DNA from: Bacillota bacterium | Lineage (GTDB): Bacteria; Bacillota; Clostridia; Acetivibrionales; DUMC01 | Reading direction: 5' to 3' | Length of the DNA: 62,628 bases | NCBI GenBank assembly: GCA_013314855.1 | Contig: JABUEW010000004.1 | Coordinates: 1-62,628, forward strand | Part shown: piece after piece, positions 35,262 to 62,628 of the stretch | Position numbering within the stretch: position 1 is the first letter of the stretch | How the letters are laid out: every line of letters starts with the position of its first letter | Made by a program: the position numbers and the translations under genes | The notes under the pieces: model-generated | What the model was told of the DNA's origin: nothing | Databases searched by the model: none | What the model saw: only the letters and a program-made list of their open reading frames with translations

Positions 35262-35307
35262 ATTCATAAAGTGGTACAAGGCTTATAAATAAGGCAAAAC
35301 TTATAGA

Positions 35308-35456: not shown

Positions 35457-35476
35457 AATAGGAGGACAAAAACAAA

Positions 35477-36676
35477 ATGTACAAATTAAGCAAGACCAAC
35501 AAATTTACCAAAGTAAAAATGCCTTTAAGTGTTTTTACAGTCGTTCTACTTTTTATCCTTTATTCTCCCATTATATATGCAGATACCCTGAAAGAAGGAA
35601 TAGTTAATGTCGAGTACCTTAATGTAAGGCAAAATCCCAGTACATCAGCCACAATTGTAGGTCAGCTTTTAAAAGATACTGAAGTGAAAATCAATGATAA
35701 TTCTGGTGACTGGTATAATATTACATTTAACAATCTGACAGGGTGGGTATATGGAGATTACGTTACGGTAAAAGAAGCCTCAACGTCATCTTCCGGTGAA
35801 TCTCCAAAACCTACAGGTTCTACTGGGGAAGAAGATAAGAAAACCGGGGTGGTAACGGCTACTGTCCTTAATGTAAGGGAAGGAGCCGGGACTTCTACAA
35901 AGGTAATAGCTCAACTGAACAATGGTATGGAAGTCAAAATCCTAGAAGAAGATAATACCAAAGACGCATTCTGCTGGTATAAGGTAAATTATGGAAACAT
36001 AAATGGTTGGGTGTCTGGTGAGTACATATCATTTAAAAATGAGCCTATTGATGAAGGGGTCGTCAATGTCAGTGTTGCCAATGTCAGGAGCGGCCCAAGT
36101 TTAACCTCCGGTGTTGTTACCCAGCTAAAGAGCGGCAGTAAGGTCAATATTTATTCTTGGTATGGCGAGTGGTATAAGATAAAATTAGAAGATGGAAGTT
36201 TTGCCTGGATATTTGGAGAACTGGTAACTACAAGAAAGTCCTTGTTACCGAGAAGCAGTCTTGCCTCCAGAGGTGGAGCAACCGGTGGAGAGAGTTCCAG
36301 TTCCCTGGGACAGCAGATTGTAAATTATGCAAAGAAATTCCTCGGTGTTAGGTATGTATGGGGAGGGACAAGCCCTAACGGTTTTGATTGTTCTGGCCTT
36401 GTACAGTACGTCTTCAGGCAGTTTGGAATAAGTTTGAATCGTGTTGCTGCAGATCAGGCAAAACAGGGCACTAAAGTTACCAGAGCACAGTTGAAACCTG
36501 GGGATTTGGTTTTCTTTAATACTGATTCCGACAGTGTTATTGATCATGTGGGCATATATATAGGCAACAACCAATTCATTCACGCATCTAACGGAAGGGG
36601 CAAGGTATTGATAGACCCGCTCAATTCCGGCTATTATAATGGGAGACTTGTGACAGCAAGAAGGATAGTAAATTAG
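35477..36676 (+). CDS. Secreted SH3b x3 - NlpC/P60 peptidoglycan hydrolase (copy 2)
   Basis: Identical 399-residue product to 22937-24136, with catalytic Cys305, His357 and His369. Both copies keep promoter, riboswitch and terminator, so dosage of the hydrolase would double while staying under c-di-AMP control. Confidence 0.94.
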   Translation: MYKLSKTNKFTKVKMPLSVFTVVLLFILYSPIIYADTLKEGIVNVEYLNVRQNPSTSATIVGQLLKDTEVKINDNSGDWYNITFNNLTGWVYGDYVTVKEASTSSSGESPKPTGSTGEEDKKTGVVTATVLNVREGAGTSTKVIAQLNNGMEVKILEEDNTKDAFCWYKVNYGNINGWVSGEYISFKNEPIDEGVVNVSVANVRSGPSLTSGVVTQLKSGSKVNIYSWYGEWYKIKLEDGSFAWIFGELVTTRKSLLPRSSLASRGGATGGESSSSLGQQIVNYAKKFLGVRYVWGGTSPNGFDCSGLVQYVFRQFGISLNRVAADQAKQGTKVTRAQLKPGDLVFFNTDSDSVIDHVGIYIGNNQFIHASNGRGKVLIDPLNSGYYNGRLVTARRIVN

Positions 36677-36739
36677 GCGACAAAAGCACTAGAATAAGGA
36701 AAATGAAGTAGAAAAGTAAGTATTTAACCATTAACGATA

Positions 36740-36769
36740 AAAATACCCCGAAAAGGGGTATTTTTTTTA
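36740..36769 (+). terminator. Terminator after NlpC/P60 gene, copy 2
   Basis: Same AAATACCCC/GGGGTATTT stem and T run as at 24200. Confidence 0.93.
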
Positions 36770-36860
36770 TGTTTTTATGGTAGAAAAATATATAATTTTA
36801 TGATATTATATACATATATTACATAAAATTACAATACACATGCTTTGTGTAGGGGGAATA

Positions 36861-39302
36861 ATGAAAAGATATTTGGTTTTGTTTTCCATAGCTCTTATTA
36901 TTGGAATTTTATCTGCAGATCTTACCCAATCTCTTAAATTTATCATTATTACTCTGAGCATTCTTTGTATATTAATAAGCGTTTTAATTTATAAGGACAG
37001 GGCGCTTCTTTTTCCTTTAACGGGAATATTCGTTTTCTTTGCAATCGGTGCTTTTGAATACCTTTATATGGACAATGTAATTACACGAAAGTTTATAAAT
37101 TTTAACGAGCAACAGGTTATTGTTCAAGGTGTAATATGTTCAAAACCCGAATATAAAGATGCGAATACCGAATATAAGGATGGGAGGATACGCTGTGAAA
37201 TGGTTACCTACCAGGTTTCCTTCCTAAATAAAGAAAATGCCGGTGCTTCGCTAAATAAAGGAAATGCCGATACTTCTCAAACTAAAAATAAAGAAAGAAT
37301 ATCTAAGGGAAAAATCCTCTTAACAATATACGGGCAGGACCTATTATTAGAGTACGGCAGCGAAATAGAAGTAACAGGGGTCCTTACCATTCCTAACAAA
37401 AGAAGAAATCCCGGGAGTTTAGACTACAGAAGGTATCTGGCAGGTTCCGGAATATCTGCAACAATATATACCAAAAGCAGCAATGTTAAAACCGGTAATA
37501 CAAGGGATGAAGGCATTTTATTAAGAACAGGCCATATAGTGAGGGAGAGAATTATAAAAGTTATAAACTTAAGCTTGCCCGAAAGACAAGCTCCCCTCCT
37601 GAACGCAATGTTGACCGGTTACCGTGGAGAGGTTCCTGATGAACTGCAAGAGAATTTCAGCGACTCAGGTTTAATCCATATTATGGCTGTGTCGGGACTC
37701 CACGTCGGATTTATTATGCTTCCCTTTGTGTTTGTTTTCAATAAACTTGGCTTAAAAAAGAAGATTGCCAACCCAATCGTTATACTGGTTCTTTTAATAT
37801 ATGTACTGATAACCGGTCCTCAATCCTCGGTGCTCCGTGCGGTAATAATGGCCGTAACTGTACTTATTGGCCAGATGATATGGAGGGAGCCTGATACACT
37901 AACAAGTATTTCTTTTGCTTCCATTTTGATTTTGCTGTGGAGACCTCATATGCTTTTTAATGTCGGTTTCCAATTATCTTTTGCGGCTACTGTATCAATT
38001 GTTCTATTCAATAAAAACATAAAAGAATTTCTGAAGTCTAAGTATATTTCTGACAATGTTTCAAGTATCCTGGCAACAACCCTGTCAGCCCAGGCAGGTA
38101 TTTTACCCATAACAGCGGTGTATTTCAACAAAGTGTCTCTCATTTCTGCCTTTTCCAATCTTTTAGTTGCGCCTATTACAGGGATTATAATCATGCTGGG
38201 GATGGCAATGGCTGGATTGGGCCAAATATACATCCTCTTTTCCCGGATAATAGGGTATATTAACACAGTTTTGCTTACATTTGTAATTTTTGTTTCAAAA
38301 ACTGCAGGAAATCTACCTTTTGCTATGTTAAAAGTTGTTACCCCTTCAATTCTTCTTATAACGGTATATTATATCTTAATATGGTTCTTATTCTGGTTTA
38401 AACCCAAGTATAAGGTTAAAATAAAGCCGGAATACTACATCATTGCATTAATGTTCATTATTGCCTTTACTCTAATAGCAAACTTGCTTCCAGGAGAAAT
38501 GGAGGTTGTTTTTTTGGACGTAGGTGAAGGTGATTCTGCATTCATAAGGACCCCTTCGGGAAAAGCTGTTTTAATAGATGGAGGGGGTAAAAAAGGAGAC
38601 AATTTCGAAGATGGAACTAATGTGGGTAATAAAGTGGTAATACCCTTTTTACTTGAATTTGGAGTAACAAAACTTGATATGGTAGTGGTGACTCATGCCC
38701 ATGAAGACCATATTAATGGTATTATGCCGGTACTGGAGGAAATAAAAGTTGAAAATGTGATCATTCCGGATTATATTATCGATGATGAGTTTGATAAATT
38801 ATTGGATATTTGTAGCCAAAGGAAAATAAAAGTCACCTATGTCAGCAAAGATAATTCCATAAATCTTGGTAAAGATACATATATAAAAATACTCAACCCC
38901 CCTAAAGACACAAAAAAAGGAGAACTGTCTTTAAATAATAGCTCTGTTGTGTTAAAATTATATTATAAAGATATGGAAATTCTTTTTTCCGGGGACATTG
39001 AGAAAGAAGTGGAAAATAGAATTATAGAGAGCATGCCCGATGATATCAAAGCTGATGTTTTAAAAGTGCCTCACCATGGATCTCTTACTTCTTCAACACA
39101 GGAATTTCTTGAGCTTGTGGGACCGAAAGCTGCAGTAATCAGCGTGGGGAAAAACAATTACGGCCATCCTTCAAGTGATGTTTTAGACAGGTTGGCCGGA
39201 GTTGGGGCAAAAATTTTCCGGACCGATTTGAATGGAGCGGTAATCTTGAGGTCAAACGGAAAAATCATAAGGATAAAGGTGATGTGTAAAGATGAGTCTT
39301 GA
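36861..39302 (+). CDS. comEC: ComEC/Rec2 DNA-uptake channel (copy 2)
   Basis: Identical to 24321-26762; start chosen for the same AGGGGGA site. It again overlaps holA by 11 bp. Confidence 0.95.
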   Translation: MKRYLVLFSIALIIGILSADLTQSLKFIIITLSILCILISVLIYKDRALLFPLTGIFVFFAIGAFEYLYMDNVITRKFINFNEQQVIVQGVICSKPEYKDANTEYKDGRIRCEMVTYQVSFLNKENAGASLNKGNADTSQTKNKERISKGKILLTIYGQDLLLEYGSEIEVTGVLTIPNKRRNPGSLDYRRYLAGSGISATIYTKSSNVKTGNTRDEGILLRTGHIVRERIIKVINLSLPERQAPLLNAMLTGYRGEVPDELQENFSDSGLIHIMAVSGLHVGFIMLPFVFVFNKLGLKKKIANPIVILVLLIYVLITGPQSSVLRAVIMAVTVLIGQMIWREPDTLTSISFASILILLWRPHMLFNVGFQLSFAATVSIVLFNKNIKEFLKSKYISDNVSSILATTLSAQAGILPITAVYFNKVSLISAFSNLLVAPITGIIIMLGMAMAGLGQIYILFSRIIGYINTVLLTFVIFVSKTAGNLPFAMLKVVTPSILLITVYYILIWFLFWFKPKYKVKIKPEYYIIALMFIIAFTLIANLLPGEMEVVFLDVGEGDSAFIRTPSGKAVLIDGGGKKGDNFEDGTNVGNKVVIPFLLEFGVTKLDMVVVTHAHEDHINGIMPVLEEIKVENVIIPDYIIDDEFDKLLDICSQRKIKVTYVSKDNSINLGKDTYIKILNPPKDTKKGELSLNNSSVVLKLYYKDMEILFSGDIEKEVENRIIESMPDDIKADVLKVPHHGSLTSSTQEFLELVGPKAAVISVGKNNYGHPSSDVLDRLAGVGAKIFRTDLNGAVILRSNGKIIRIKVMCKDES

Positions 39303-40293
39303 TGTTTTAAAAACACAAATAAAAAATAAGGATATCAAATCCCTATACTTGTTCTATGGGCCTGAGGAATACCTTAAAAAATACTACATGGGAAGTATAG
39401 AGGAAATAATATTAGAAAAAAGCACCAGGGCTTTAAATAAAATTGTGATGGAAGATAAGGTAGAAGTTTCTAAAATTATAGATAATTGTGATACCTATCC
39501 CGTTTTTTCTCAAAAAAAGGTGGTTGTAGTTAAAAACTCCGGCCTGTTTAAAGGAAGCGAAGGAAGTAAAGAAGATACCGGGAAACTTATAGATTACATG
39601 AAAAACATACCTCCATTTACGTGCCTTATTTTTTATGAAACAGAGGTGGACAAGCGTCTTCGCATTTATAATGCGATTAAAAAAGAAGGCCTAATAGTTG
39701 AGTTTCCTTACCAAAAGTCATATGACTTGGCCAAATGGGTGGTAAAGGTAGCAAAAGCAAATAAAAAAGAAATAAGTATGGAAACTGCTTCAATCCTGGT
39801 TGAGAAAAGCGGGCAGGAAATGACGGAAATACTGAATGAAATAAATAAACTAATTGTCTATACCGGAGAAAAAAAAGTTATTGAAAGTGAAGATGTAAGG
39901 GAAGTGTGTAATACTTCCATAAAAAGCAAAATATTCGATTTGACAGACGCAATTGTGGAAAAGGACATAGCCAAGTCATTGAAGTATCTTGACGACATGA
40001 TTACTTTGAGGGAGCCGGTGCCTATAATTATATATATGATTGCAAGGCAGTTTAGGCAAATACTGGAGGCAAAAATCCTTGCCGGAAGTGGAGCAGGTTT
40101 GAAAGAAATCGCATCAAAGTTGAAAGTTTCGCCATATATTGCAGGCAAGATACAAAAACATGCAGAACAATTTTCTTTTCAGTGGCTTAACAGGAGCATC
40201 CAAGATATCTTTGAATGTGATGTTGCAATTAAAACAGGGAAAATGAAAGATAAAACGGCGGTAGAACTGTTAATTGCGAAACTGGTAGGATAG
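39292..40293 (+). CDS. holA: DNA polymerase III delta subunit (copy 2)
   Basis: Identical to 26752-27753. Two copies of this single-copy replication gene are unusual and are explained by the tandem duplication. Confidence 0.94.
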   Translation: MSLDVLKTQIKNKDIKSLYLFYGPEEYLKKYYMGSIEEIILEKSTRALNKIVMEDKVEVSKIIDNCDTYPVFSQKKVVVVKNSGLFKGSEGSKEDTGKLIDYMKNIPPFTCLIFYETEVDKRLRIYNAIKKEGLIVEFPYQKSYDLAKWVVKVAKANKKEISMETASILVEKSGQEMTEILNEINKLIVYTGEKKVIESEDVREVCNTSIKSKIFDLTDAIVEKDIAKSLKYLDDMITLREPVPIIIYMIARQFRQILEAKILAGSGAGLKEIASKLKVSPYIAGKIQKHAEQFSFQWLNRSIQDIFECDVAIKTGKMKDKTAVELLIAKLVG

Positions 40294-40305
40294 AAAAAAA
40301 CAAAA

Positions 40306-40341
40306 ATAAATAAAACGTACATTTGTACGTTTTATTTATTT
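40306..40341. terminator. Two-way terminator, copy 2
   Basis: Same palindrome as at 27766, between holA and rpsT. Confidence 0.88.
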
Positions 40342-40619
40342 ACTGTAGTATTAACTGTGATGTTGGCTGTATTAAAAGCTTTTGTGAGCTTGGATTTATT
40401 TCTTGCGGCAGTGTTCTTGTGTATTACATTTTTAGCCGCTGCTTTATCTAATGCTTTTATTGCATTTTTAAGAAACTCTGCAGCCTTAGGGTCGTTATTT
40501 TGAATTGCTATCTTGCATTTTTTAACTGCTGTCCTTAATGCGGACTTTCTCATGGCATTTATTAATCTTTTCTTCTCCGCAATTCGTACTCTCTTTATTG
40601 CTTTCTTGGTATTAGGCAA
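40332..40619 (-). CDS. rpsT: 30S ribosomal protein S20 (copy 2)
   Basis: Identical to 27792-28079, including the TTG start and GGGAGGGG site. A duplicated ribosomal protein gene is rarely kept, which argues for a recent event or an assembly artefact. Confidence 0.96.
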   Translation of the reverse strand: MPNTKKAIKRVRIAEKKRLINAMRKSALRTAVKKCKIAIQNNDPKAAEFLKNAIKALDKAAAKNVIHKNTAARNKSKLTKAFNTANITVNTTVNK

Positions 40620-40658
40620 GCTGTTTTCACCCCTCCCGATAATTAATGAACGGAGTAA

Positions 40659-40687
40659 ATTCTATCATGAAAAAAAGTAAATTTCAA
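40659..40687 (-). promoter_or_regulatory. rpsT promoter, copy 2
   Basis: TTGAAA-17-TAGAAT on the minus strand, as at 28119. Confidence 0.78.
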
Positions 40688-40789
40688 GAGGAATGCAAAA
40701 AATAAATTAAGGAAAAATAAAAAGGAGTAAATTAACTAACCAGCACAATATGTTAAATTAATAAAGAGCGGAAAGAAAGGAATGGTAAG

Positions 40790-41794
40790 ATGGAACAAAT
40801 AAGAAATGTGGTTACGGATTTGGCAATAGAACTTCGTGAACTGGTAAAGGAACGGAATGCAAAGCAAGTTCCCCCTAAGGAAGAAGAGATACCGGGAGTT
40901 GAGGTAACAAATGCCGGTACGGAGGAAATTAAAATATCAAGAGTAAAAATCAACTCTATCCAGGGACAAAATGCCCTTGGGAAACCCATGGGAAACTATA
41001 TTACAATTGAAGTTCCGGGCATAAAATATAACGATATGGACTTATATGAGAATACATGTAAGGCATTAGCTACAGAACTGGCTGGGATACTTAATCTTAA
41101 GGAAAAGTCTACGGTTTTGGTAGTAGGGCTTGGAAATTGGAATGTGACCTCTGATTCTCTCGGTCCAAAAGTTGTTTCAAAATTAATGGTAACAAGGCAC
41201 CTGGTACAATATGTACCTGAGGAAGTAGAACAGGGAGTAAGGCCGGTGTGCGCAATAGCTCCCGGAGTATTGGGGATTACCGGAATAGAGACAGGAGAAA
41301 TTATAAGAGGCATAGTTGACAGGATAAGGCCTGATTGTATTATAGCAATTGATTCTCTTGCATCAAGAAGGCTCGATAGGGTAAATACAACAATACAAAT
41401 TGCAGATACAGGCATATCCCCGGGATCAGGAGTAGGCAATAAAAGGATGGACCTTTCCAGGGATACATTGGGAGTACCCGTTATAGCAATAGGTGTACCT
41501 ACAGTTGTTGATGCGGCCACAATAGCTAATGATGTTATAGACCTTGTCCTGGACAGTTTTATAAACCAGGCTGAGCAGGGAACCCAATTTTACAATATGC
41601 TTAAGAGCATAGACAGAAATGAAAAATACCAACTTATACAGAAAGTATTGGACCCGTATACGGGGAATTTAATTGTTACTCCGAAAGAAATAGACGAGGT
41701 TATTGAAAGGATAGCAAAAGTGATTGCCAACGGGATTAATATTGCTGTCCACCAGGGAATTACTCTGGATGATGTTAACAGGTATTTGCATTAA
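40790..41794 (+). CDS. gpr: Germination (spore) protease GPR (copy 2)
   Basis: Identical to 28250-29254. Confidence 0.95.
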   Translation: MEQIRNVVTDLAIELRELVKERNAKQVPPKEEEIPGVEVTNAGTEEIKISRVKINSIQGQNALGKPMGNYITIEVPGIKYNDMDLYENTCKALATELAGILNLKEKSTVLVVGLGNWNVTSDSLGPKVVSKLMVTRHLVQYVPEEVEQGVRPVCAIAPGVLGITGIETGEIIRGIVDRIRPDCIIAIDSLASRRLDRVNTTIQIADTGISPGSGVGNKRMDLSRDTLGVPVIAIGVPTVVDAATIANDVIDLVLDSFINQAEQGTQFYNMLKSIDRNEKYQLIQKVLDPYTGNLIVTPKEIDEVIERIAKVIANGINIAVHQGITLDDVNRYLH

Positions 41795-41800
41795 AAACTG

Positions 41801-41830
41801 TTGACATCAATTTAACAAATGATTTATAAT
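41801..41830 (+). promoter_or_regulatory. Promoter of glycine riboswitch-serA, copy 2
   Basis: TTGACA-18-TATAAT as at 29261. Confidence 0.83.
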
Positions 41831-41849
41831 AAAACTAATTTAATAAAGT

Positions 41850-42025
41850 CGGATGATTGATGGGGGAGAGATATTCCTTAAAGCTTTGGAAGCAGAGGAA
41901 TACACCGAAGGAGTTGCACTCTCAGGTAAAAAGACCTCGTCAGGACGGACCTCTGGAGAGACCGTTGTCGGCGCCGAAGGGGCAAGGCTTAAAATGGGCC
42001 AATCTCTCAGGCAAAAGGACAGAGT
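41850..42025 (+). promoter_or_regulatory. Tandem glycine riboswitch (copy 2)
   Basis: Both aptamers as at 29310-29485. Confidence 0.92.
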
Positions 42026-42078
42026 GGGTTGCTAAAAGAAAATGCAATATGCATTTTGTCATACTTGGTTTACTACAG

Positions 42079-42120
42079 AGGTCATGTTCCGTAAGGACTT
42101 GACCTTTCAATTTATTATTA
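42079..42120 (+). terminator. Hairpin between glycine riboswitch and serA, copy 2
   Basis: Same stem and T-rich tail as at 29539. Confidence 0.58.
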
Positions 42121-42172
42121 AAGCGGTAGGTTTGCACAACTGATTAAACTAAAAAGGGGAGGTTTTGTATTT

Positions 42173-43780
42173 ATGAGGATTATTGTAACAGATAAAATGG
42201 CAGAAGACGGAATTGAATATTTAAGGGAGAAAGGGTTTGAAGTTGATACCAGGTTTGGCATTTCCCCTGAAGAGCTGCTCCAGGTAATTGAAAACTATAA
42301 TGCGATTATTGTAAGAAGTGAAACAAAAGTAACAGAAAAAGTTATCGAAAAGGGAAAGAATCTTAAGGTTGTAGGTCGAGCCGGGAACGGCATAGACAAT
42401 ATAGATGTTAACGCCTGTACAAAAAGAGGCATCCTGGTTGTAAATACGCCTGAAGGGAACATAATGGCGGCAGCCGAGCTAACGATAGGCATGGCATTTG
42501 CCCTGTTCAGGAATATACCCCAAGCCTATATGGCAGCTAAAAATAAGGATTTCAGAAGGAATAGGTTTGTAGGAAATGAACTCGATGGTAAAGTTGCAGG
42601 CGTTGTGGGACTTGGAAGAATTGGTTCAATTGTAGCTTCAAAACTGAAAGCCCTGAATATGAAAGTTATTGCCTATGACCCTTTTGTTACCGACGAGCGG
42701 TTTGAAAAGATGGGAATAGTAAAATGTGAAACCCTTGAAGAGTTAATGAAACAGGCTGATATGATTACCGTCCACATTCCAAAGACGGACAAAAGCCAGG
42801 GGCTCATAGGAGAAAAAGAGTTGAAATTATGTAAAAAAGGTGTCAGGATAATAAATGTGGCAAGAGGTGGTGTTATTGATGAAAAAGCGCTGTACAACGC
42901 CCTGAAGGAAGGCCGTGTTGCAGGAGCTGCCATAGACGTTTTTGAAAAAGAACCTAATTTCAACAAGAAACCGGAAGAACAGGATTATACCAACCCATTG
43001 CTGGAGTTGGACAACGTTATTTATACTCCTCATCTTGGGGCATCAACAGAAGAGGCAAACCATAATGTAAGCCTCGGGGTTGCTAAACTTATTGAAGGTG
43101 CATTAAAAGGCGAAGTAGTTGCTGCAGTCAACATGCCCCCAATTAAAGCTGACAATTTGAATGGCATAAAACCCTACGTAGAAATAGCTGAAATACTAGG
43201 GAAAATATATTACCAGGCAGAAAAGAATACCGTGCACAAAATAGAGGTTATATACAGCGGGGATCTTGCCCAAAAAGACACAAAACTTATATCTCTTTCA
43301 GTTTTGAAAGGTTTTCTTGAACATGCAGGTAAAGATACGGTAAATTATGTAAACGCCGGGTATATTGCAAAAAGCATGGGCATAGAAATGGTAGAAAGCA
43401 AAAGCACAAACCTGGACAAATACACCAACCTTATAACTGTTAAGTTTGTTACCAGGGAAAGGGAACTCAGTGTATCGGGTACCGTATTTGCAAAAGAAGA
43501 AATAAGGATAGTAGATTTCTTCGGATATAAACTCGACTTTGAACCGACACCCTATGTTATTGCTATCCAAAACATAGACAAACCCGGAATTATAGGAAGA
43601 ATCGGTACCATCCTCGGCGCAAATAATATTAATATTGCAGCTATGCAGTGGAGCAGGAACAGGAAGAGCGACAACAAGGCGGTAGCTTTTGTAAGCGTAG
43701 ACTGTGAAGTGCCGGATAACATCTTGCAGCAGTTAAGGCAAATAGACGGTGTATTAAAAGCAACAATGCTCACTTTTTAG
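42173..43780 (+). CDS. serA: D-3-phosphoglycerate dehydrogenase (copy 2)
   Basis: Identical 535-residue product to 29633-31240, with NAD-binding, catalytic and ACT segments intact. Confidence 0.95.
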   Translation: MRIIVTDKMAEDGIEYLREKGFEVDTRFGISPEELLQVIENYNAIIVRSETKVTEKVIEKGKNLKVVGRAGNGIDNIDVNACTKRGILVVNTPEGNIMAAAELTIGMAFALFRNIPQAYMAAKNKDFRRNRFVGNELDGKVAGVVGLGRIGSIVASKLKALNMKVIAYDPFVTDERFEKMGIVKCETLEELMKQADMITVHIPKTDKSQGLIGEKELKLCKKGVRIINVARGGVIDEKALYNALKEGRVAGAAIDVFEKEPNFNKKPEEQDYTNPLLELDNVIYTPHLGASTEEANHNVSLGVAKLIEGALKGEVVAAVNMPPIKADNLNGIKPYVEIAEILGKIYYQAEKNTVHKIEVIYSGDLAQKDTKLISLSVLKGFLEHAGKDTVNYVNAGYIAKSMGIEMVESKSTNLDKYTNLITVKFVTRERELSVSGTVFAKEEIRIVDFFGYKLDFEPTPYVIAIQNIDKPGIIGRIGTILGANNINIAAMQWSRNRKSDNKAVAFVSVDCEVPDNILQQLRQIDGVLKATMLTF

Positions 43781-43912
43781 TGAAGCTCACTTTTCAGGAA
43801 AGCGCAACAGATTGTTGACAATGAATTTTAATGGCGGTTAAAGAATATTTGGCACAAGCGGAAAACAATAAAAAAACGGGAAACAAACAAGAAAGAGGCA
43901 GCAATAGTTACT

Positions 43913-44278
43913 ATGGTGACGGCAACTGTTTTTATAATGGGGCTGGTTGTGGGGAGCTTCCTTAACGTATGTATCTACCGCATACCGCGACGTGAATCGG
44001 TGGTTGCGGGCGCTTCGCATTGCCCTGATTGCGGCAGAAAAATAAAATGGTATGACATGGTGCCTGTCTTAAGCTATATACTGCTAAAAGGCAGGTGCCG
44101 TTTTTGCAAAAACAGGATATCTTTAAGGTATCCTGTTGTCGAATTTTTAAACGGGATAACCTGGCTTACCCTGCACATTATCCTAGGCCTTTCGGTATGG
44201 TTTGTGTTAAGCTGTATTGTTGTGTCTTGTATGTATGTCATATTTTTCATGAGGAAGGATAAAACAATGGGAGAGTAA
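43913..44278 (+). CDS. Prepilin-peptidase-like protein, N-terminal domain only (copy 2)
   Basis: Identical to 31373-31738. Both copies end at the same point, so the short form is not a product of the duplication. Confidence 0.82.
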   Translation: MVTATVFIMGLVVGSFLNVCIYRIPRRESVVAGASHCPDCGRKIKWYDMVPVLSYILLKGRCRFCKNRISLRYPVVEFLNGITWLTLHIILGLSVWFVLSCIVVSCMYVIFFMRKDKTMGE

Positions 44279-44327
44279 AAATTATGTCTTTTTTTATAAT
44301 AAAATAGAAAGAGTGATCAAAAAATAT

Positions 44328-44357
44328 TTGTTTACATTTTGCAAGATATGATATAAT
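44328..44357 (+). promoter_or_regulatory. Pilin promoter, copy 2
   Basis: Same as 31788-31817. This copy is the one continuous with the complete pilus operon. Confidence 0.63.
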
Positions 44358-44438
44358 ATAATTGGAGGAATTTAATATAATAGTAGTAAAATAGGTAGGG
44401 ATTACTATTAAATTTATTTTTTAGGGGAGGTCAAAGCT

Positions 44439-44804
44439 ATGATTAACAAATTCATGAAAGGATTCAAAAAGAACAAGAAAGGTTTCACCCTGGTTGAACT
44501 TATGGTAGTAGTTGCAATCATCGGTATACTTACGGCGATAGCCGTGCCCATCTACACAAATTCACAGCAAAAGGCCAGGGAAGCTGCGGACGCAGCAAAT
44601 GAAAGGATCTTGAAGGGTGCTGCAGCCATGTACCTAGCGGATGAAGGCTTGCCGACCAGCGACGAAGTATGGGACGGTACCGCTGGTCAGAATTGGGAAG
44701 ATTACCTGGAATCCTGGCCCGAGTGCCAAGTAGATACTACCAAGAATTTCAAAGTAACTATTGGTACTGATGGCTCAATAACTGTTGAGCAAGTAACTCC
44801 ATAA
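44439..44804 (+). CDS. Type IV pilin (copy 2)
   Basis: Identical to 31899-32264. It is the pilin that precedes the intact downstream assembly operon. Confidence 0.93.
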   Translation: MINKFMKGFKKNKKGFTLVELMVVVAIIGILTAIAVPIYTNSQQKAREAADAANERILKGAAAMYLADEGLPTSDEVWDGTAGQNWEDYLESWPECQVDTTKNFKVTIGTDGSITVEQVTP

Positions 44805-44917
44805 GAACAATACGATTAATTTTTCTTACTAATTCCAGGTATGACATATATATTGAAAGCATGACTTATTTAAGCTTTATATGCCTTGCGTTACTTTATC
44901 ATGAGAAGACATGCATA

Positions 44918-44951
44918 TTACAAAGGGAGTAAATGATTACTCCCTTTGTAA
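44918..44951 (+). other. Perfect 15-bp hairpin, copy 2
   Basis: Same arms as at 32378-32411. Confidence 0.68.
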
Positions 44952-45142
44952 ACATGGAGAGCAAGGAAATGTTGTTTTCTCATATTTGTGTTACATTTTT
45001 TATGTTATATTCTTGTTGTTTATGGCAAAAGCTTAGTGCCATATTTATTTAATATTTGATTTTTTGATTTGATAATAGTGTAATTTATAAATAATGTTAT
45101 TGTATAAAAAATATTAATTAAATTAAAAAATATAAAAATATA

Positions 45143-45168
45143 TTGATTATAAAGGTTGATTATAAAGG
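45143..45168 (+). repeat. 13-bp tandem repeat with ribosome-binding site, copy 2
   Basis: TTGATTATAAAGG twice, as at 32603. Confidence 0.73.
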
Positions 45169-45177
45169 GGAAAGAAC

Positions 45178-45735
45178 ATGCCTGCCGATTGGGATGGGAA
45201 CAATATTCCTAGTGGTTTTAAAAGCAAAATTGTCCAATTTTTTAATAAAAATAAACTTCTTGTATATGCCTTACCGCTATTAATTATCCTTATCGTCGTA
45301 TTAATAATTTTGTACTCGAATAGAGGTATCGGAGGTAATATCAAAGACCGCCCTGCTGGCGGGGAAGCTTTAGATACGGGGCAGATTGGCAATTTAATTG
45401 AAGAGATAGAAGATAAGGTCGAAGTACTCCCAAACGTAGTCCGTCCGGTTGACCAGCAACAGCAAACTGCTGCACAGGCAGCTGAAAAATCCGACGATGC
45501 GGTATTGTATAACCCGTTTGAACAGCCAATGGTGCTTTCTGGGATATTGTATGCTGAAAACGGAAACAGTGTTGCTATTATAGAAACAAGTGAAAAGTCA
45601 TATATTGTAAGAAAAGGTGATAGTGTAGGTACAAGCTGGAAAGTGGAAGAAATAACCGACAACACGGTGGTTTTAAAAGCTGGAGAAAAGGAGACCACGT
45701 TAAGCATATTGAAAAATGAACATATTGAAAAATGA
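45178..45735 (+). CDS. PilP/GspC-like pilus assembly protein (copy 2)
   Basis: Identical to 32638-33195. Here it is followed by the full-length PilQ-like gene. Confidence 0.75.
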   Translation: MPADWDGNNIPSGFKSKIVQFFNKNKLLVYALPLLIILIVVLIILYSNRGIGGNIKDRPAGGEALDTGQIGNLIEEIEDKVEVLPNVVRPVDQQQQTAAQAAEKSDDAVLYNPFEQPMVLSGILYAENGNSVAIIETSEKSYIVRKGDSVGTSWKVEEITDNTVVLKAGEKETTLSILKNEHIEK

Positions 45736-45815
45736 AATACAATACAATAAAATAAAATAAAATTAGTAAAAAAGCAATAAAAAATACAGAAACAAAAGAT
45801 AAGGTGACACATTCA

Positions 45816-47657
45816 ATGCAATCGATGCAACCTAAGACACATTGGTTGAGGTGGAAAGTTGTTAAGATGAGAAAAACGAGGAAATCAACGTTCAAAGCTA
45901 GAAAAAGGAAGAAAATACTCAATACGATAGGAATAATCATCCGTATTTTCCTTTGTATTGTTTATATAACCTATTTTATGACAGCAGTAACAGCAGAAAC
46001 CGTTATAAAGCCTCTTATTTGGAATAACACGTCATCGGAAACAGCATCGACTGTTTCGAAGATAAATAATGCAAGTACTGTGGCTAGTAGAATTGATACT
46101 TCAGGTATTTCTAATAAATCTTCTTTAGAAACGATCAGCAAGACAGCATCCGATAAAATTTCTCTCAATGTGGAAAATGCCGATATAAGGGATGTACTCT
46201 CAGCAATTGCGCTCGGACTGGACTTAAACATAATTTTTATGGAACAATCACAAAGGGTATCTTTCCGGATAAATAATGTGACATACCTTACGGCTCTCGA
46301 ATATTTATTGAAGAGCAACGGCTTGGACTACCTGGTAAATGACAATATTATTATTGTAGGCAAGAGCGAAACGCTGCAAAATGACTTTTTTAACAAGCCA
46401 CTTCTTGCAAGGTTTGATTTGAATTACATTACGGCTAAACAATTAAGCAGTCAGATAGATGCCCTGGAAATTTCAGTAAAAAAGATAATTTTTGATGAAA
46501 ATGAAAAGTCAATTTGGGTACAGGGTACTTCACAATACATTTCGAAAGTTAAAGAATTAATCTCAATGGTTGATATACCAGAGAACGCAATAAAAGAAGC
46601 AGGCTTAGTACAAGGAATTGTTAAACTTCTTCCTTATGAATTGAAACACATTGATGCTGCGACCTTTGAAAACTTTATAAAGCAGTTGGGCATGGATATT
46701 AAGACAATTACCATTGACACTAATCCAAAAAAGATATGGGTTAGTGCTAAGGAAGAGGAAATTGCCGAATTAGAAGAACTTATAAAAACAATTGATGTTG
46801 AAGAAAACAAATTGGTGGCGAAAGAAGATATACCTCTCAAACTAATTCCTTACGAGTTGGAATTTGTTTCTTCCGACAGGATTAATAGTATTATTACCCA
46901 AATGGGTATCGATGTTAAGGTTTTATGCCTTTCATCAAACCCATATAAAATATGGCTAGATTCAAGAAGCAAGGACATCGCGGATTTCGAGGAACTGATT
47001 GATAAAATTGATATAATGGAAAACGGAAAGTGGTTTTTAGAGGTAACCACTTTGAAGTTGAAATATTTAACCGCCGACAGGTTTAAAGCTATAATAAACC
47101 AGCTCGATATCCCGGTACAAGTGATAACGCTTGACTCAAATGCTTATACCGTATGGGTTTCAGGTACTCCAAGGGATATCATTGATATTAAATTATTACT
47201 AAGAGATATTGATACTGATAATATAAGGGAAGATTCAGCGTTTTATATACATAAGCTGTCAAACATAAGCCCGCAGGAAGCTGTTACAAGGTTCGAGTAT
47301 TTGCAGATTACCGACGCAAAGGTGTTTACTCTTAATTTCCCTTTATTTTCAAAAGAAATTTTGGTTGTATGCAAGCCGGATAGAAAAGAAGAAATTGCAA
47401 AGGCTATAGACGGAATTGATGTAAAGGGTGAAAAAATAAAAGTACCTGTGGATTATTCCACCGATGCAGCAGGCCAGTCCAGGCTTGCCTCCAGGAGAGA
47501 TTTGCTCGTCAGCCTTACGGGGATACCTGCAACCAGTTTCTTTATTTCAAACAATGTATCCAGGGATTCAACACCACGCTATATAATGTGGGTTGAAGAA
47601 ACCCCTGAGAATATCCGTAAGATTTTAGATATGATTACTACTATTGATAGTTTTTAA
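45816..47657 (+). CDS. PilQ-like protein: STN and N-domain repeats, no secretin barrel
   Basis: 613 residues from ATG 45816 (AAGGTG 9 nt upstream; a GTG at 45804 and an ATG at 45867 are alternatives). A very basic N-terminus is followed by a membrane/signal segment (TIGIIIRIFLCIVYITYFM) and an STN/N0 domain (about residues 110-190: ISLNVENADIRDVLSAIA...NNVTYLTALEYLL). Four to five repeats of ~65 residues follow, each with a short strand, DxxxxxIWV/TVWV and an (I/L)KxLIxxID-type helix, resembling secretin N1-like domains. The C-terminal secretin pore domain is missing; the protein ends in another repeat. In a one-membrane cell an outer-membrane pore is not needed, so a wall-spanning ring or guide is a reasonable inference. 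pilT follows after 62 bp. Confidence 0.82.
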   Translation: MQSMQPKTHWLRWKVVKMRKTRKSTFKARKRKKILNTIGIIIRIFLCIVYITYFMTAVTAETVIKPLIWNNTSSETASTVSKINNASTVASRIDTSGISNKSSLETISKTASDKISLNVENADIRDVLSAIALGLDLNIIFMEQSQRVSFRINNVTYLTALEYLLKSNGLDYLVNDNIIIVGKSETLQNDFFNKPLLARFDLNYITAKQLSSQIDALEISVKKIIFDENEKSIWVQGTSQYISKVKELISMVDIPENAIKEAGLVQGIVKLLPYELKHIDAATFENFIKQLGMDIKTITIDTNPKKIWVSAKEEEIAELEELIKTIDVEENKLVAKEDIPLKLIPYELEFVSSDRINSIITQMGIDVKVLCLSSNPYKIWLDSRSKDIADFEELIDKIDIMENGKWFLEVTTLKLKYLTADRFKAIINQLDIPVQVITLDSNAYTVWVSGTPRDIIDIKLLLRDIDTDNIREDSAFYIHKLSNISPQEAVTRFEYLQITDAKVFTLNFPLFSKEILVVCKPDRKEEIAKAIDGIDVKGEKIKVPVDYSTDAAGQSRLASRRDLLVSLTGIPATSFFISNNVSRDSTPRYIMWVEETPENIRKILDMITTIDSF

Positions 47658-57444: not shown

Positions 57445-57464
57445 TGACTTAAGGGGTGATTATT

Positions 57465-57707
57465 TTGAAAACAATAAATGTTACTAATGCAAGGGATAAT
57501 TTATATACTTTGATTGATGAAACCGAAATAAACCACGAACCAATACAAATAACGGGTAAACGTAACAATGCAATTCTTATATCAGAAAGCGATTGGAACG
57601 CTATACAGGAAACATTATACTTGTTAAGCATTCCAAACATGAGGGAATCTATAATCGAAGGAATAAATACTCCGATTTCAGATTGTTCTGAGAAATTGCA
57701 ATGGTGA
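57465..57707 (+). CDS. yefM: YefM/Phd-type antitoxin
   Basis: 80 residues from TTG 57465 (AAGGGG 8 nt upstream; GTG 57456 overlaps that site). The N-terminal DNA-binding part is TINVTNARDNLYTLIDETEINHEPIQITGKRNNAILIS with the family GKR segment and EISESDW-like SESDWNAIQETLYLL. The C-terminal tail wraps the toxin in known members. It overlaps the toxin gene by 7 bp. Confidence 0.92.
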   Translation: MKTINVTNARDNLYTLIDETEINHEPIQITGKRNNAILISESDWNAIQETLYLLSIPNMRESIIEGINTPISDCSEKLQW

Positions 57708-57967
57708 ACTTTAAGCTGGTATACACCAAAAAAGCCCAGGATGACGCACTTAAGTTGAAGAATGTTGGCCTTAAAGATAATGTTGAAAAATTGCTTAATA
57801 TTTTAAAAGTTAACCCTTTTCAGAATCTACCTCATTATGAAAAGCTTGTGGGGGATTTAGCGGGTGTTTATTCCAGAAGAATTAATTTAAAGCACAGACT
57901 TGTGTATCAAGTTTTTAAAGATGAAAAGATTGTAAAAGTAATTAGAATGTGGTCACACTATGAATGA
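57701..57967 (+). CDS. yoeB: YoeB/Txe-type mRNA interferase toxin
   Basis: 88 residues. Family features are clear: VNPFQNLPHYEKLVGDLAGV, YSRRINLKHRLVYQV, and the C-terminal RMWSHYE. Catalytic residues corresponding to the E. coli YoeB Glu, Arg and His are Glu47, Arg66 and His86. It cleaves mRNA in the ribosome A site. Start ATG is within the end of the antitoxin gene. Confidence 0.93.
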   Translation: MVNFKLVYTKKAQDDALKLKNVGLKDNVEKLLNILKVNPFQNLPHYEKLVGDLAGVYSRRINLKHRLVYQVFKDEKIVKVIRMWSHYE

Positions 57968-58019: not shown

Positions 58020-58103
58020 GTGCAATTTCTATGAAAAAGATGGTGATAAATATTCTAATGCATAATATAATAATATAATAATGATGGTGGTTAAGATAAA
58101 TAC

Positions 58104-58189
58104 TAATGGCGATGGAGCTCGCCAAAAATGCTTGGATTAAAAGCTAATAGCTCCTACTTTTTTGTAGGATCATTAGCTTTTTATTTTTT
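58104..58189 (+). promoter_or_regulatory. Fluoride (crcB) riboswitch with terminator
   Basis: The aptamer core GGCGATGGAGCTCGCC (58108-58123) with AAAAATGC, then GCTAATAGCTCCTAC (58143-58157), matches the crcB motif. The last strand also forms a terminator with GTAGGATCATTAGC (58164-58177) and a T-rich tail (58178-58189). Fluoride binding should prevent the terminator from forming and turn on the MFS gene that starts 20 bp further on. Confidence 0.9.
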
Positions 58190-58208
58190 ATGAAGGAGAT
58201 GTATTATT

Positions 58209-59393
58209 GTGGATAATAGGAGTAAACCGACCAAAGAACGAAATAATGTTCGTACACTAGGCTGGGTAGCCTTTTTTGGTGGTTTCGGTCAGGATATGAT
58301 TCAGCCCATACTTCCAATCTTTTATTCCTCTGTTTTGGGATTAAGCAAAGGGACTATAGGTCTTATTGAGGGCAGCTTGACAACAATCGTAAGTGTTTTT
58401 AAAATACTCTCCGGTATTATTTCCGACAGAATAGGAAGACGAAAGAGTATTGTTTTTATAGGCTATTTACTTTCGGCAATAAGCCGTTTCTTATTTGGCA
58501 CTGTGTCTTCTGCATGGCAAGCTTTTACTTTACGTTTGATAGACGGTATAGGAAAGGGAACAAAAGATGCTCCCAGGGATGTATTAATAGCCCAATCTGC
58601 AAAGGAAGGTCGGGTGGGATTCTCTTTCGGATATCAGCGTATGCTTGATACTTTTGGTTCCGTTATGGGACCGCTAGCAACAACCGGGATACTTTATCTA
58701 TTAGTAAACGGAAATATAAGGTACAGGATAATCTTTTATATCGCAGGTCTTATTTCTGCGGTAACAATACTTTTAATCGGACTTTTTGTAAGTGAAAAAG
58801 CCACACCTGTTTCCAAGGAACAAACAAAATTCGATTTTAGCATATTAAAGGGTAAATTCCTGTTTTTCCTTATAATCATGCTTGTTTTCACGTTGGGTAA
58901 TTCAAGCGATTCATTTTTATTTCTGCGTGCTCAAAACGTTGGTATAGATCCTGTTATTATACCGATTGTATATGCGGTGTTTAATCTCCTTTATGCTCTT
59001 TTGTCCGTTCCGGCTGGCAGTCTTTCGGATAAGATAGGCAGGGTCAAAGTAATGCAAGTCGGATGGCTTGTTTATGCCCTATCGTATTTAGGCTTTGCCG
59101 TCGCTAATCACCCCTGGCATATATGGTTAATATACATATTCTACGGTCTTTATTATGCAACAACCGAAGGAATAGCGAAGTCATTGATCGCTCGTATAGT
59201 ACCAGATAGCAAACGTGGTACAGCTTATGGACTATTTAATGCCTCATTAGGCATTATGACCTTGCCAGCAAATATTATTGCAGGATACCTTTGGGATAAA
59301 GTTTCTCCTTCGGCAACATTTTATTTTGGGGCTGCATGTGCTTTTGCTGCGTTATTGAGTATAAGCTTTTCAAAAATAGAAAGAGCTCCATAG
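58209..59393 (+). CDS. MFS transporter under fluoride riboswitch control
   Basis: 394 residues; GTG start at 58209 with AAGGAG 10 nt upstream. 12 membrane segments are seen, with motif A SDRIGRRKS after helix 2 and its echo SDKIGRVKVM after helix 8. The loop KGTKDAPRDVLIAQS and SFGYQRMLDTFGS carry polar residues in the membrane region of helix 4-5. Sequence is of the general efflux MFS type; no substrate signature is known to me. The riboswitch suggests a role in fluoride tolerance, possibly export of fluoride or relief of a linked stress. The TauE/SafE gene starts 13 bp downstream. Confidence 0.88.
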   Translation: MDNRSKPTKERNNVRTLGWVAFFGGFGQDMIQPILPIFYSSVLGLSKGTIGLIEGSLTTIVSVFKILSGIISDRIGRRKSIVFIGYLLSAISRFLFGTVSSAWQAFTLRLIDGIGKGTKDAPRDVLIAQSAKEGRVGFSFGYQRMLDTFGSVMGPLATTGILYLLVNGNIRYRIIFYIAGLISAVTILLIGLFVSEKATPVSKEQTKFDFSILKGKFLFFLIIMLVFTLGNSSDSFLFLRAQNVGIDPVIIPIVYAVFNLLYALLSVPAGSLSDKIGRVKVMQVGWLVYALSYLGFAVANHPWHIWLIYIFYGLYYATTEGIAKSLIARIVPDSKRGTAYGLFNASLGIMTLPANIIAGYLWDKVSPSATFYFGAACAFAALLSISFSKIERAP

Positions 59394-59406
59394 AAAGGAT
59401 TATTTT

Positions 59407-60129
59407 GTGATGACTAATTGGATGATACTCTTTTTGATTGCCTGGCTTGCTGCAACTATATCTGGTTCTGCAGGTTTTGGAGGTGCATTAATATTATTAC
59501 CGATACTCACAAACATTGTCGGTGTCAAGGCTGCCGTTCCTATTCTTACGGTTGCACAACTTCTAGGGAATATGTCTAGGGCTTGGTTTGGATGGCGTGA
59601 AATACGAATAAAGCCCGTATTGCTGTTCATTTTAGGAGCTATCCCAACGACAATTATTGGGGCAAAGCTTTTTGTATCTTTACCAAAGCAGTATATAAAT
59701 ACAGGCATAGGAATATTACTGATTATTATTGTAATTATGCGAAGGGTAAAATTATTCGACTTTAAGATAAACGAATTATTTTTAATACCTGGTGGCGCTT
59801 TAGTAGGATTTCTTTCGGCAGTAGCCGGAAGTGCTGGCCCTCTTGGAGCGGCATTTTTCCTGGGATTAAATCTTCCTGCTATCGCCTATGTCTCAAGTGA
59901 AGCGGTTACTGCAGTAGCAATGCATATTACAAAAACGGTAATGTATCAAAAATATGCATTAATAGGCTTAAACAACCTTCTATTAGGTCTATTTTTAGGG
60001 GTGGCGATGATAATTGGCTCATGGACAGGAAAAAAGCTAATACAGAAACTTTCCCGTGCAAAGTTCCTGCTGTTGGTAGAAGTCTTAATGGTTATATCAG
60101 GGCTGCAACTTATTTTATTCAATCAATAA
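59407..60129 (+). CDS. TauE/SafE-family permease
   Basis: 240 residues. GTG 59407 (AAAGGA 7 nt upstream) or ATG 59410 are possible starts. Two similar halves: SGSAGFGGALILLPIL with ...AAVPILTVAQLLGNMSRAWFGWREI, and LSAVAGSAGPLGAAFFL with ...AVTAVAMHITKTVMYQKY. This is the TauE/SafE (formerly DUF81) pattern of sulfite/sulfonate or anion exporters. Close spacing to the MFS gene suggests one transcript under the fluoride riboswitch. Transport of an anion would fit, but fluoride itself is unproven. Confidence 0.9.
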   Translation: MMTNWMILFLIAWLAATISGSAGFGGALILLPILTNIVGVKAAVPILTVAQLLGNMSRAWFGWREIRIKPVLLFILGAIPTTIIGAKLFVSLPKQYINTGIGILLIIIVIMRRVKLFDFKINELFLIPGGALVGFLSAVAGSAGPLGAAFFLGLNLPAIAYVSSEAVTAVAMHITKTVMYQKYALIGLNNLLLGLFLGVAMIIGSWTGKKLIQKLSRAKFLLLVEVLMVISGLQLILFNQ

Positions 60130-60321: not shown

Positions 60322-61059
60322 ATGAAAGAAAAAATTTATACCATACCTTTGTGGGATGCTTTTAGAAATGCTACAGAATGTCCATTGTGTGAAATAGAGG
60401 CAAAAATTGAGAAAAAGTATATTGATAACCTATTCAGTGAACATGATGCTATAATAATGGATACTGCTTTTAACAAAGAAATAACCAACTATACCTTTTG
60501 TAATTCACATTTTAAACAGCTTTATGAGTATCCAGATAAACTTGGACTTGCTTTAATAGTTCATAGATTACTTTATAGTGAAATTTCACAACTGAAAAGG
60601 TTAAAGTTAAGTGAAAATCTTAAAAGAATAATTGATTTGTCACTTTTGGCAAGAACTACAAGCATCATCTTTAAAAACAGTAAGAATAAGATAAAAATAG
60701 ATAAACATTGTTATCTATGTGATAAAATAAATAATGCAATGGGATCATATATTGATATAATGATTGACTTATGGTCAAATGATGAAGAATTTAAAGTTTT
60801 GTTCAACAAATCAAAAGGACTATGCCAGAAACATTTTAATTACGTTATTAACCACTCTAAGAGAATATTCAGTAACAAAAAGAGGAAAATTTTTATTTCG
60901 GCATGCCTGACAAATCAACTAAACAATATGTATCGTATGAATGAAGAATTGGAGTGGTTTTTGAAAAAATTGGATTTCCAGTTTAAGGATGAACCGTGGA
61001 AATCATCAAAAGATGCTCTTGTAAGGAGCATTAGCAAAATAACTGGCAAATTTCTATAA
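60322..61059 (+). CDS. DUF6062-like protein with two CxxC/CxxHF pairs
   Basis: 245 residues, GGGGGATAATTA before the ATG. Two similar halves: CPLC (residue ~21) with CNSHF ~60 residues later, and CYLC (~132) with CQKHF ~45 residues later. The paired CxxC and CxxH could bind two zinc ions. The protein is otherwise helical with no membrane segment, and ends LDFQFKDEPW. I believe this matches the uncharacterised DUF6062 family, from memory only. The neighbour at 61069 (minus) is of the same type. Function unknown. Confidence 0.78.
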   Translation: MKEKIYTIPLWDAFRNATECPLCEIEAKIEKKYIDNLFSEHDAIIMDTAFNKEITNYTFCNSHFKQLYEYPDKLGLALIVHRLLYSEISQLKRLKLSENLKRIIDLSLLARTTSIIFKNSKNKIKIDKHCYLCDKINNAMGSYIDIMIDLWSNDEEFKVLFNKSKGLCQKHFNYVINHSKRIFSNKKRKIFISACLTNQLNNMYRMNEELEWFLKKLDFQFKDEPWKSSKDALVRSISKITGKFL

Positions 61060-61068
61060 CAAAGATGG

Positions 61069-61809
61069 TTACAAGATTGAAATATTATTACCGGAAATAA
61101 TCCGAATTGCGTCTATCCAGGCTGTTTGCTCATCACCTTTAGGCTCGTTTGAAAATCTGTAATCCATCTTTCTCATATATTCATTTAATCTATTTTGCAA
61201 AGTTTTAAGCTTTTCAATATAGTTATCAATAAGCTTTTGCCTCTGTTCAAATTCCATTAATGGTAAAACCTTCACAAAGTGATCATAACATAAACCCTTC
61301 GAGTTATTGTAATATTTAAAAACATCCGGGTCGGTAAAATATTCTACAAAAAACTCCAGATGCCTGGATTCAGCTTCATGTTCATTTTGGCAAACAGCAC
61401 ATTCACACTTTCTCAATAAGGAATTTAAGTACTTGTTTGCTTTTTTATTCTTTCTTTTATTTAAATGTAGTGTTAATTGCTCATTTTTCAATTTAATATT
61501 TTCAATACTATTTATAACCTTCTCAATAAGACCCTCATACATTATTGTCTGTCCGAGATTGTTATCATATTCTGTTTCTCCGATTTTTTTCAAAATCCAT
61601 GCATGCCTGTTACAATAGCCAATGGAATTGTAAAATCTAATCCGTGTTGAAAGATCATTCACGTTCTCATCCAAAAGATACCGGAAATATCTTAATGTAC
61701 TATTAAAAACATTATTGCAAATCACACACCCATCCTTTTTAAACCCTTCAACAAATGATATATATGTTATTCCCCTCTCACTAATAAAAATCAACCTCCT
61801 TATGTCCAT
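61069..61809 (-). CDS. Paralogous DUF6062-like protein, convergent with its neighbour
   Basis: 246 residues, GGAAGGTG 5 nt before ATG 61809. Same plan as the protein at 60322: CVIC then CNRH, CAVC then CYDHF, and the ending MDYRFSNEPKGD that parallels FQFKDEPW. Only 9 bp separate the two stop codons. Overall identity between the two is low, so they are old paralogues. An extra AAGGAGG at codons 3-5 suggests a possible downstream start, but no suitable start codon lies there. Confidence 0.75.
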   Translation of the reverse strand: MDIRRLIFISERGITYISFVEGFKKDGCVICNNVFNSTLRYFRYLLDENVNDLSTRIRFYNSIGYCNRHAWILKKIGETEYDNNLGQTIMYEGLIEKVINSIENIKLKNEQLTLHLNKRKNKKANKYLNSLLRKCECAVCQNEHEAESRHLEFFVEYFTDPDVFKYYNNSKGLCYDHFVKVLPLMEFEQRQKLIDNYIEKLKTLQNRLNEYMRKMDYRFSNEPKGDEQTAWIDAIRIISGNNISIL

Positions 61810-61833: not shown

Positions 61834-62628
61834 TCAGGTGTTGCCGCCGAATATCCTGTTATACAAATCCTCACCATAACTGGTTCGCAATGGTTCCCCT
61901 TCGATTATTTTAAAAGTCCGTCTTCCGTCGGTTTGCCTTTCGGCCCGCAGGAAAATGAAGTTTTCTATTTTTTTGCAATAAAAACCGTACGCAAATTCAT
62001 ATAAATGTGTAACGAAGAAAACCTTGATATGCTTTTCCAATAATGCACAAATTATTTACCTTGCAATCTCCGAGCCCTCTCTTTCGTTTGTCGCGGCAAA
62101 TGATTCATTAAACAGCAACATGGAATTTGACGTTATATTGTCTACGATATCGCTCATTCTGCTGAGTTCTTCATCAAGTTTCCCGCTTTTCATAGTAGCG
62201 TCTTCTTCCCTTTTGTAGTGTGTAAAAAGGCCGTCGCAGATATTGGAACAGAAAGACTCTGCCGGCACAAACATGCCGCATTGCATCATCAATTGGGATA
62301 AACCTATGCTTCGCAAAAAAGTCGATTTGCCGCCCTGGTTGGCGCCTGTGATTATCACGAGGTTTTTATTGTCAGCGTTCACATTGTTACCTACAATTTT
62401 TTGTTTCATGGTTAAGGCCAGACAAACGTCGTATAAGCCTTTAAAAGAATGTCTGCGTTCGCCAGGAGACACAGGCAGGGGAAAAGATATCGGTTCCCCA
62501 ATTTGGGCAAGTTGCTCATATAAATTCAAACAACCGATGTAAAAAGCCAGTTCGGTTCTTAACATATTAAAAAAACTGTTAATATGATCGGCGGACTGGG
62601 CGAGCGCATTGGCCACAAGGTTGATCCC
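61834..62628 (-). pseudogene. MutS-family ATPase C-terminus with internal in-frame stop (partial)
   Basis: The gene enters from the right window edge. The visible part has the MutS Walker A GANQGGKSTFLRSIG, an ABC-type signature region (LDEELSRMSDIV) and Walker B-like SMLLFNESFAATNEREGSEIAR. A TAA (62056-62058) follows, and the same frame continues at once with IICALLEKHIKVFFVTHLYEFA, the expected MutS switch/His region, to the stop at 61834. A single C-to-T change of a CAA codon would explain the stop. Wording resembles the MutS-like family without an N-terminal mismatch-binding domain, but the front is not visible. The C-terminus would be lost unless read through. Confidence 0.82.

Follow-up and report, generated by a model that had tools for sequence, protein, structure and literature searches.

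What does a transporter of the major facilitator superfamily (MFS) do behind a fluoride riboswitch? The question is raised by a locus near the right end of the window, by which we mean the whole 62,628-nucleotide stretch of DNA analysed here. The original prediction placed a crcB-type aptamer with a mutually exclusive terminator before an MFS gene, with a TauE/SafE gene 13 bp further on, remarked that the usual fluoride exporters (CrcB/Fluc or CLC-F) are absent here, and took the pair as a candidate fluoride-responsive transport system. The riboswitch and the two transporter genes comprise the following features.

58043..58071, plus strand: possible promoter, GTGATA-17-TATAAT (consensus scan, 10/12 matches), 27 bases 5' of the aptamer.
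58099..58163, plus strand: fluoride riboswitch aptamer (crcB motif), RF01734 at 51.1 bits (gathering score 34).
58139..58189, plus strand: intrinsic terminator, stem ~58139-58181 plus a T-rich tract to 58189 (fold and shuffle control).
58193..58199, plus strand: Shine-Dalgarno-like AAGGAGA, read from the sequence, 9 nt 5' of the MFS GTG start (58209).
58209..59393, plus strand: MFS transporter, 394 aa, GTG start (Pfam MFS_1, 1.4e-47), of a narrow fluoride-riboswitch-linked clade.
59407..60129, plus strand: TauE/SafE-family permease, 240 aa (Pfam TauE, 9.4e-30), 13 bases after the MFS stop (59393).

The riboswitch, and the coordinates and spacing of the genes behind it, were as predicted. An Rfam scan of the whole window matched RF01734 (Fluoride) to 58099-58163 with an E-value of 3.1e-11 over model positions 1-64 of 64, placing the conserved sequence and structure of the aptamer above the curated score for the family. 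The segment 58138-58182 folds into a hairpin of -18.7 kcal/mol, and none of 1000 mononucleotide shuffles folded as low (mean -3.6, sd 2.0). Because this terminator takes the 3' half of the aptamer as its 5' arm (~58139-58158), the two folds are mutually exclusive, and folding with the shuffle control thus identifies an expression platform of the predicted kind. The hairpin was not among the output of a simple consensus terminator scan of the region. An aptamer overlapping its terminator is the arrangement described for this class in an excerpt of PMC2864571, and the history of the class is told in sections of PMC7266159. The promoter call is weak, as the region holds 27 such sites against 19.7 expected in shuffles. 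A YefM/YoeB-type toxin-antitoxin pair lies just 5' of the riboswitch, at window 57456-57967.

The anatomy of the locus and the established mechanism of the riboswitch class argue for an ON switch. Without fluoride, the nascent RNA would fold into the terminator, and transcription would halt before the MFS gene. Fluoride and Mg2+ would stabilize the aptamer and hold back the terminator arm, and the MFS gene, the TauE gene and possibly a downstream DUF6062 gene would then be transcribed.

We looked for the same linkage in other genomes by scanning 84,980 species, one genome per species, with an alignment of the window MFS and its homologue in UBA1305 (genome G042), a member of the same order, as query. 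It searched with no more than two exact peptide patterns, which hit 82 stretches; four of these code for a relative, at 73-89% identity. RF01734 lay directly upstream of the gene in all four (Rfam scan, cut-off 34).

UBA1305: MFS ~88-89% identity, aptamer 58.8 bits, next gene an enolase.
Desulfosporosinus sp. PR: MFS 77% identity, aptamer 40.2 bits, next gene a P-type ATPase.
Caproiciproducens galactitolivorans: MFS 74% identity, aptamer 39.5 bits, next gene a second MFS.
Caproicibacter fermentans: MFS 73% identity, aptamer 35.7 bits, no further same-strand gene within the census limits.

UBA1305 had been met beforehand through its own riboswitch and formed the second row of the query, and the relatives in Desulfosporosinus, Caproiciproducens and Caproicibacter are therefore the three independent finds. 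In the leaders of all five MFS genomes, a predicted hairpin overlaps the 3' part of the aptamer. Since the genes after the MFS differ between genomes, it is the link between switch and MFS that persists and not the whole operon. Among these neighbours, the Desulfosporosinus ATPase is nearest to TIGR01647, the proton-efflux P-type ATPases, at 591 bits, below the cut-off of 615.5.

Eleven more distant MFS relatives, found in 391 genomes of the class, scored 150-296 bits, compared with 810 for the window protein, and none of the 11 had RF01734 above cut-off within about 1.5 kb. Under random assignment, 3/3 against 0/11 has a chance of 1 in 364 (calculated by hand), a figure that is indicative only, the sequences being related. 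The fluoride control originally predicted for this gene is thus supported by a riboswitch before every relative found beyond the window. The comparison supports the MFS as a dedicated member of the fluoride regulon, and its riboswitch control and regulon membership are, at the level of sequence, well supported. The clade is rare, comprising its own genome and the four species found by the two-pattern scan, and this rarity may be a sign of lateral transfer. Between the window genome and UBA1305, the MFS proteins share ~88-89% identity and the CrcB proteins 67-74%.

A census of 105 riboswitch places above cut-off, drawn from 58 genomes of the order and a 391-genome sample of the class, gave the wider gene content of these operons. 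At each place, as many as eight consecutive same-strand genes after the aptamer were sorted by similarity to seed proteins. The census leaves out below-cut-off places and ten places in L055-L058 that had been fetched because of their MFS gene, and in each of two tandem pairs it counts the second aptamer only. CPA-type cation/proton antiporters occupied 51 of the 105 places, CrcB of the first type 20, CLC 10, dynamin-like GTPases 7, the first MutS-like type 6 (two being one G042 unit reached from two aptamers), DUF6062-like copies 5 (window included), enolase 3, and this MFS 2 (the window genome and G042). Genes without a seed match were present at 41 places (87 proteins), and at two places no gene fell inside the limits. 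Among the best 25 of 170 families, Pfam matched five of the 87 unsorted proteins to NifU_N and three to GGGtGRT.

When a wide MFS profile was run on the 242 census proteins, it found, beyond this clade, a second MFS family only, distant from the first (133-150 bits). This second family occurs in fluoride operons of two genomes (L157 9208-10518 and L057 9224-10438); in G187 it sits 3' of a MutS-like pair, and in Caproiciproducens 3' of the first MFS. The census also yielded dynamin-like GTPases (Dynamin_N) after fluoride riboswitches at L036, L144, L168, L182, L189, L190 and L192, sometimes beside enolase, CrcB or MutS-like genes; no paper bringing dynamin together with a fluoride riboswitch was found among the matches listed. 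Tandem same-strand fluoride aptamers precede NhaP-like antiporter genes at G259:C11:68817-68968 and G361:C42:372-540. Five genomes have weakly NifU-like proteins in their fluoride operons, scoring at or near the NifU_N cut-off (L052 5520-7268, L044 11612-13324, L047 1-1312, L186 1645-2986 and L194 9835-10527), some with a second protein after them.

We next asked whether the usual exporters are missing. They are absent from this contig, as the original prediction had it; the genome as a whole does encode one. A whole-genome RF01734 search gave three fluoride aptamers above cut-off, in the window, on contig C35 and on contig C34, and both CrcB matches of the genome fell on C35, where the order is aptamer, diverged DUF6062 gene, and two adjacent CrcB genes. 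An adjacent crcB pair is the arrangement described for heterodimeric Flucs in a portion of PMC11139923. The search for crcB and eriC, proposed originally as a check, thus returned a CrcB pair, while no CLC match, that is, no Voltage_CLC domain marking a CLC-F antiporter, was obtained in the genome at E 0.001. The proteins under riboswitch control in the window match MFS families and TauE, and none has a CRCB domain. A genome devoid of exporters is therefore ruled out, since two genes for CrcB lie behind a further fluoride riboswitch. Nor is the notion supported that the MFS and TauE proteins substitute for absent exporters: all five genomes carrying this MFS encode CrcB, and the MFS therefore appears to add to the channel.

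What the MFS adds was approached through the protein itself. Its superfamily membership follows from an MFS_1 score of 162.8 bits and a structure prediction with a helical MFS fold (pLDDT 77). In a fold comparison, the organic anion transporter MFSD10 ranked first and the drug/H+ antiporter NorA next (TM 0.71-0.75); sugar and nucleoside importers are likewise among the fold matches. No named NCBIfam MFS subfamily reached its cut-off among the best 25 of 45 families, the top model scoring 93.7 bits against 131. Compared with ten long outgroup sequences, the clade has a first-helix motif of its own, GGFGQDMIQ (residues 24-32); in nine of the ten, position 25 is D and position 29 is K or E, the tenth having a gap, and additional polar sites are changed in the clade. 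The altered helix and polar sites suggest a substrate particular to the clade. The operon neighbours in other genomes, a proton-pump-like ATPase and an enolase, point to relief of pH and glycolysis.

Our preferred reading, to which we give a probability of roughly 0.6, is a fluoride-induced ON operon whose MFS is an accessory, probably proton-coupled transporter beside CrcB in a multi-operon fluoride regulon. The locus would be one of three riboswitch-controlled units in the genome, and the MFS would work as a secondary transporter next to the CrcB/Fluc channel. Our leading guess is that it exports a small acid or anion which accumulates under fluoride, as the cell turns acid and enzymes such as enolase are blocked; the main alternative substrate is fluoride itself.

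If fluoride were the substrate, the MFS would be an exporter in its own right, working by F-/H+ antiport or HF export as an active counterpart to the passive CrcB channel, much as CLC-F serves as the active pump in other bacteria. Direct riboswitch control in all five known genomes, the clade-specific first helix and the proton-pump-like ATPase of one MFS operon are compatible with such a role, and a genome without a CLC match is one without a known fluoride antiporter. However, every MFS genome already has CrcB, numerous genes that are not exporters likewise stand behind this riboswitch, and our literature search found no MFS fluoride exporter, nor do we know of one. We therefore consider direct fluoride export unlikely.

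We are equally doubtful that the MFS is a general efflux pump, for metals, drugs or metal-fluoride complexes, that was put under fluoride control in some lineages. The protein is weakly similar to multidrug pumps by sequence profile comparison, and its top PDB sequence match is NorA (7.7e-08, about 20% identity), which also places NorA-type drug/H+ antiporters near it by both sequence and fold; to our knowledge, NorA is not a fluoride-responsive gene. Metal-resistance plasmids carry members of the broader family, which in Cupriavidus metallidurans, for instance, neighbour lead/cadmium genes. But the listed plasmid relatives, whose labels include ‘MFS transporter’, one YajR and two tetracycline pumps, are 21-45% identical to the MFS, and the first helix of the clade departs from that of its closer relatives.

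The TauE/SafE gene presents a different picture. The TauE profile covers the whole protein (104.5 bits against 32.6, residues 8-235), and the gene follows the MFS after 13 bases under a common riboswitch, which speaks for the proposal that the two proteins form a matched pair. However, TauE is found at 1 of the 105 sampled riboswitch places, and it is missing from the other four MFS operons. A profile built from four TauE proteins, run at E 0.01 on the 242 census proteins, found no other TauE. Two samples (371 genomes at E 1e-30 and 58 at 1e-15) yielded three relatives at 47-52% identity, in G029, G049 and G296, and none has RF01734 within about 1.5 kb; each of these genomes has a fluoride riboswitch somewhere, a weak statistic that we set aside. 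In G029, the TauE gene and the gene next to it run towards a riboswitch-CLC operon, convergent with it. Across the sampled places, a conserved MFS-TauE unit is thus ruled out, and a functional match between the two is improbable. We infer a tie of TauE to fluoride from its adjacency to the MFS in one genome; it would most likely add export of another small anion, as an operon extension of this lineage. That the aptamer has decayed, or that the genes are passengers without a fluoride role, is most improbable, since the aptamer matches at full length with an overlapping terminator and the linkage is kept in all four relatives despite their different neighbours, while nothing direct favours decay, the nearest sign being a stop in the neighbouring MutS-like gene.

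Three further features lie between the TauE gene and the right end of the window.

60322..61059, plus strand: DUF6062 protein, 245 aa (Pfam DUF6062, 2.8e-68), after a 192-base gap from TauE.
61069..61809, minus strand: diverged DUF6062 protein, 246 aa, convergent (Pfam DUF6062, 1.1e-20).
62056..62628, minus strand: MutS-like gene, C-terminal part, running off the window (MutS_V, 3.8e-18), with an in-frame stop.

The plus-strand DUF6062 gene is perhaps the last gene of the MFS operon; the minus-strand copy is probably the end of a second fluoride operon. Both copies match the profile and carry CxxC and CxxH, each twice, and the structure predicted from them has a pLDDT of 36.8. DUF6062 was present in 204 of the 391 class genomes, and no genome other than that of the window had it less than 10 kb from a riboswitch among the matches listed, the nearest being G270 at about 14 kb. 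DUF6062 as a general fluoride family was ruled out, as it is common in the class and only diverged copies are fluoride-linked among the matches listed. These are the minus-strand copy of the window (61069-61809), the C35 copy and copies in G053, G060 and G187 (the latter four at L032 7018-7749, L043 5502-5732, L129 1565-1927 and L157 8759-9193). The five group with a support of 1.000 (FastTree) in a tree with long branches and three short copies, and three of the five are short or broken (120, 144 and 76 aa). A diverged copy stands between riboswitch and CrcB pair in three genomes, and in G187 and the window genome a DUF6062 gene adjoins a convergent or same-strand MutS-like unit of the fluoride locus. 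Our literature search found no mention of DUF6062.

The MutS-like piece of the window is 85% identical to the second MutS-like gene of the G042 fluoride island, where two MutS-like genes are adjacent behind one fluoride aptamer. One in-frame stop, at window 62056, interrupts the frame, with recognisable sequence beyond it. The C34 aptamer stands before a truncated MutS-like gene, of which 186 N-terminal residues are encoded before the contig ends; this piece has no Pfam match and was named by 62% identity to the first MutS-like gene of G042. Given the MutS-like gene order in G042, the right end of the window is probably a second, convergent fluoride operon, separated from C34 by an assembly gap; we found no overlap between the right end of the window and the left end of C34. 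Elsewhere in the window, 21343-33886 and 33884-46426 are a direct duplication of ~12.5 kb (12,544 aligned bases, 0 mismatches, 1 gap opening) that includes a c-di-AMP riboswitch and a tandem glycine riboswitch, and reflects either tandem duplication in the very recent past or an error of assembly.

A bolder reading would add the MFS clade to the bacterial fluoride exporters as their third class, of MFS type, active and proton-coupled, in tandem with the passive CrcB channel, and would set the clade, together with the MutS-like, dynamin-like and diverged DUF6062 genes, in an extended and undescribed clostridial fluoride island. We regard this combination as rather unlikely. Our preferred reading, an accessory transporter beside CrcB, can be compared with what has been described. 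Genes named with the fluoride riboswitch in an excerpt of PMC2864571 include mutS, K+ or Cl- transport genes and formate hydrogen lyase; those in a portion of PMC11139923 include exporters, Na+/H+ antiporters, pyrophosphatase, enolase, chorismate mutase and others. The controlled gene in the window, an MFS transporter, is not among the genes named in these excerpts for the RF01734 class, and the terms MFS, TauE and major facilitator do not occur in the main text of PMC11139923.

The Enterobacter cloacae FRM operon, as described in part of PMC5533749, resembles the window locus in that one riboswitch drives several genes. Its genes beyond the exporter include enolase and a universal stress protein, and contribute according to knock-outs and complementation (PMC5533749, same part). 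The six genes named there include neither MFS nor TauE, and, unlike in that operon, CrcB in the window genome lies in a separate unit. CLC-F (EriC-F) F-/H+ antiporter operons, for example CLC plus NhaP of C. difficile (an extract of PMC11477304), likewise place a secondary transporter behind a fluoride riboswitch; CLC-F is a family unrelated to MFS, and the window genome has no CLC match.

Our literature search found no report of this MFS family; the gene list of Baker et al. 2012, reportedly the main one for this riboswitch, and a 2021 exporter review lay outside its coverage. Provisionally, then, the locus is a fluoride-riboswitch operon with a gene content that we have not found described, in a genome that also has an ordinary exporter. 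Two protein families are named as bacterial fluoride exporters in a portion of PMC11139923, which also states that better fluoride tolerance is wanted in organofluorine-degrading strains. A transporter family found so far only behind fluoride riboswitches, and in genomes that bear CrcB, would offer a handle on the further transport needs of bacteria under fluoride stress.
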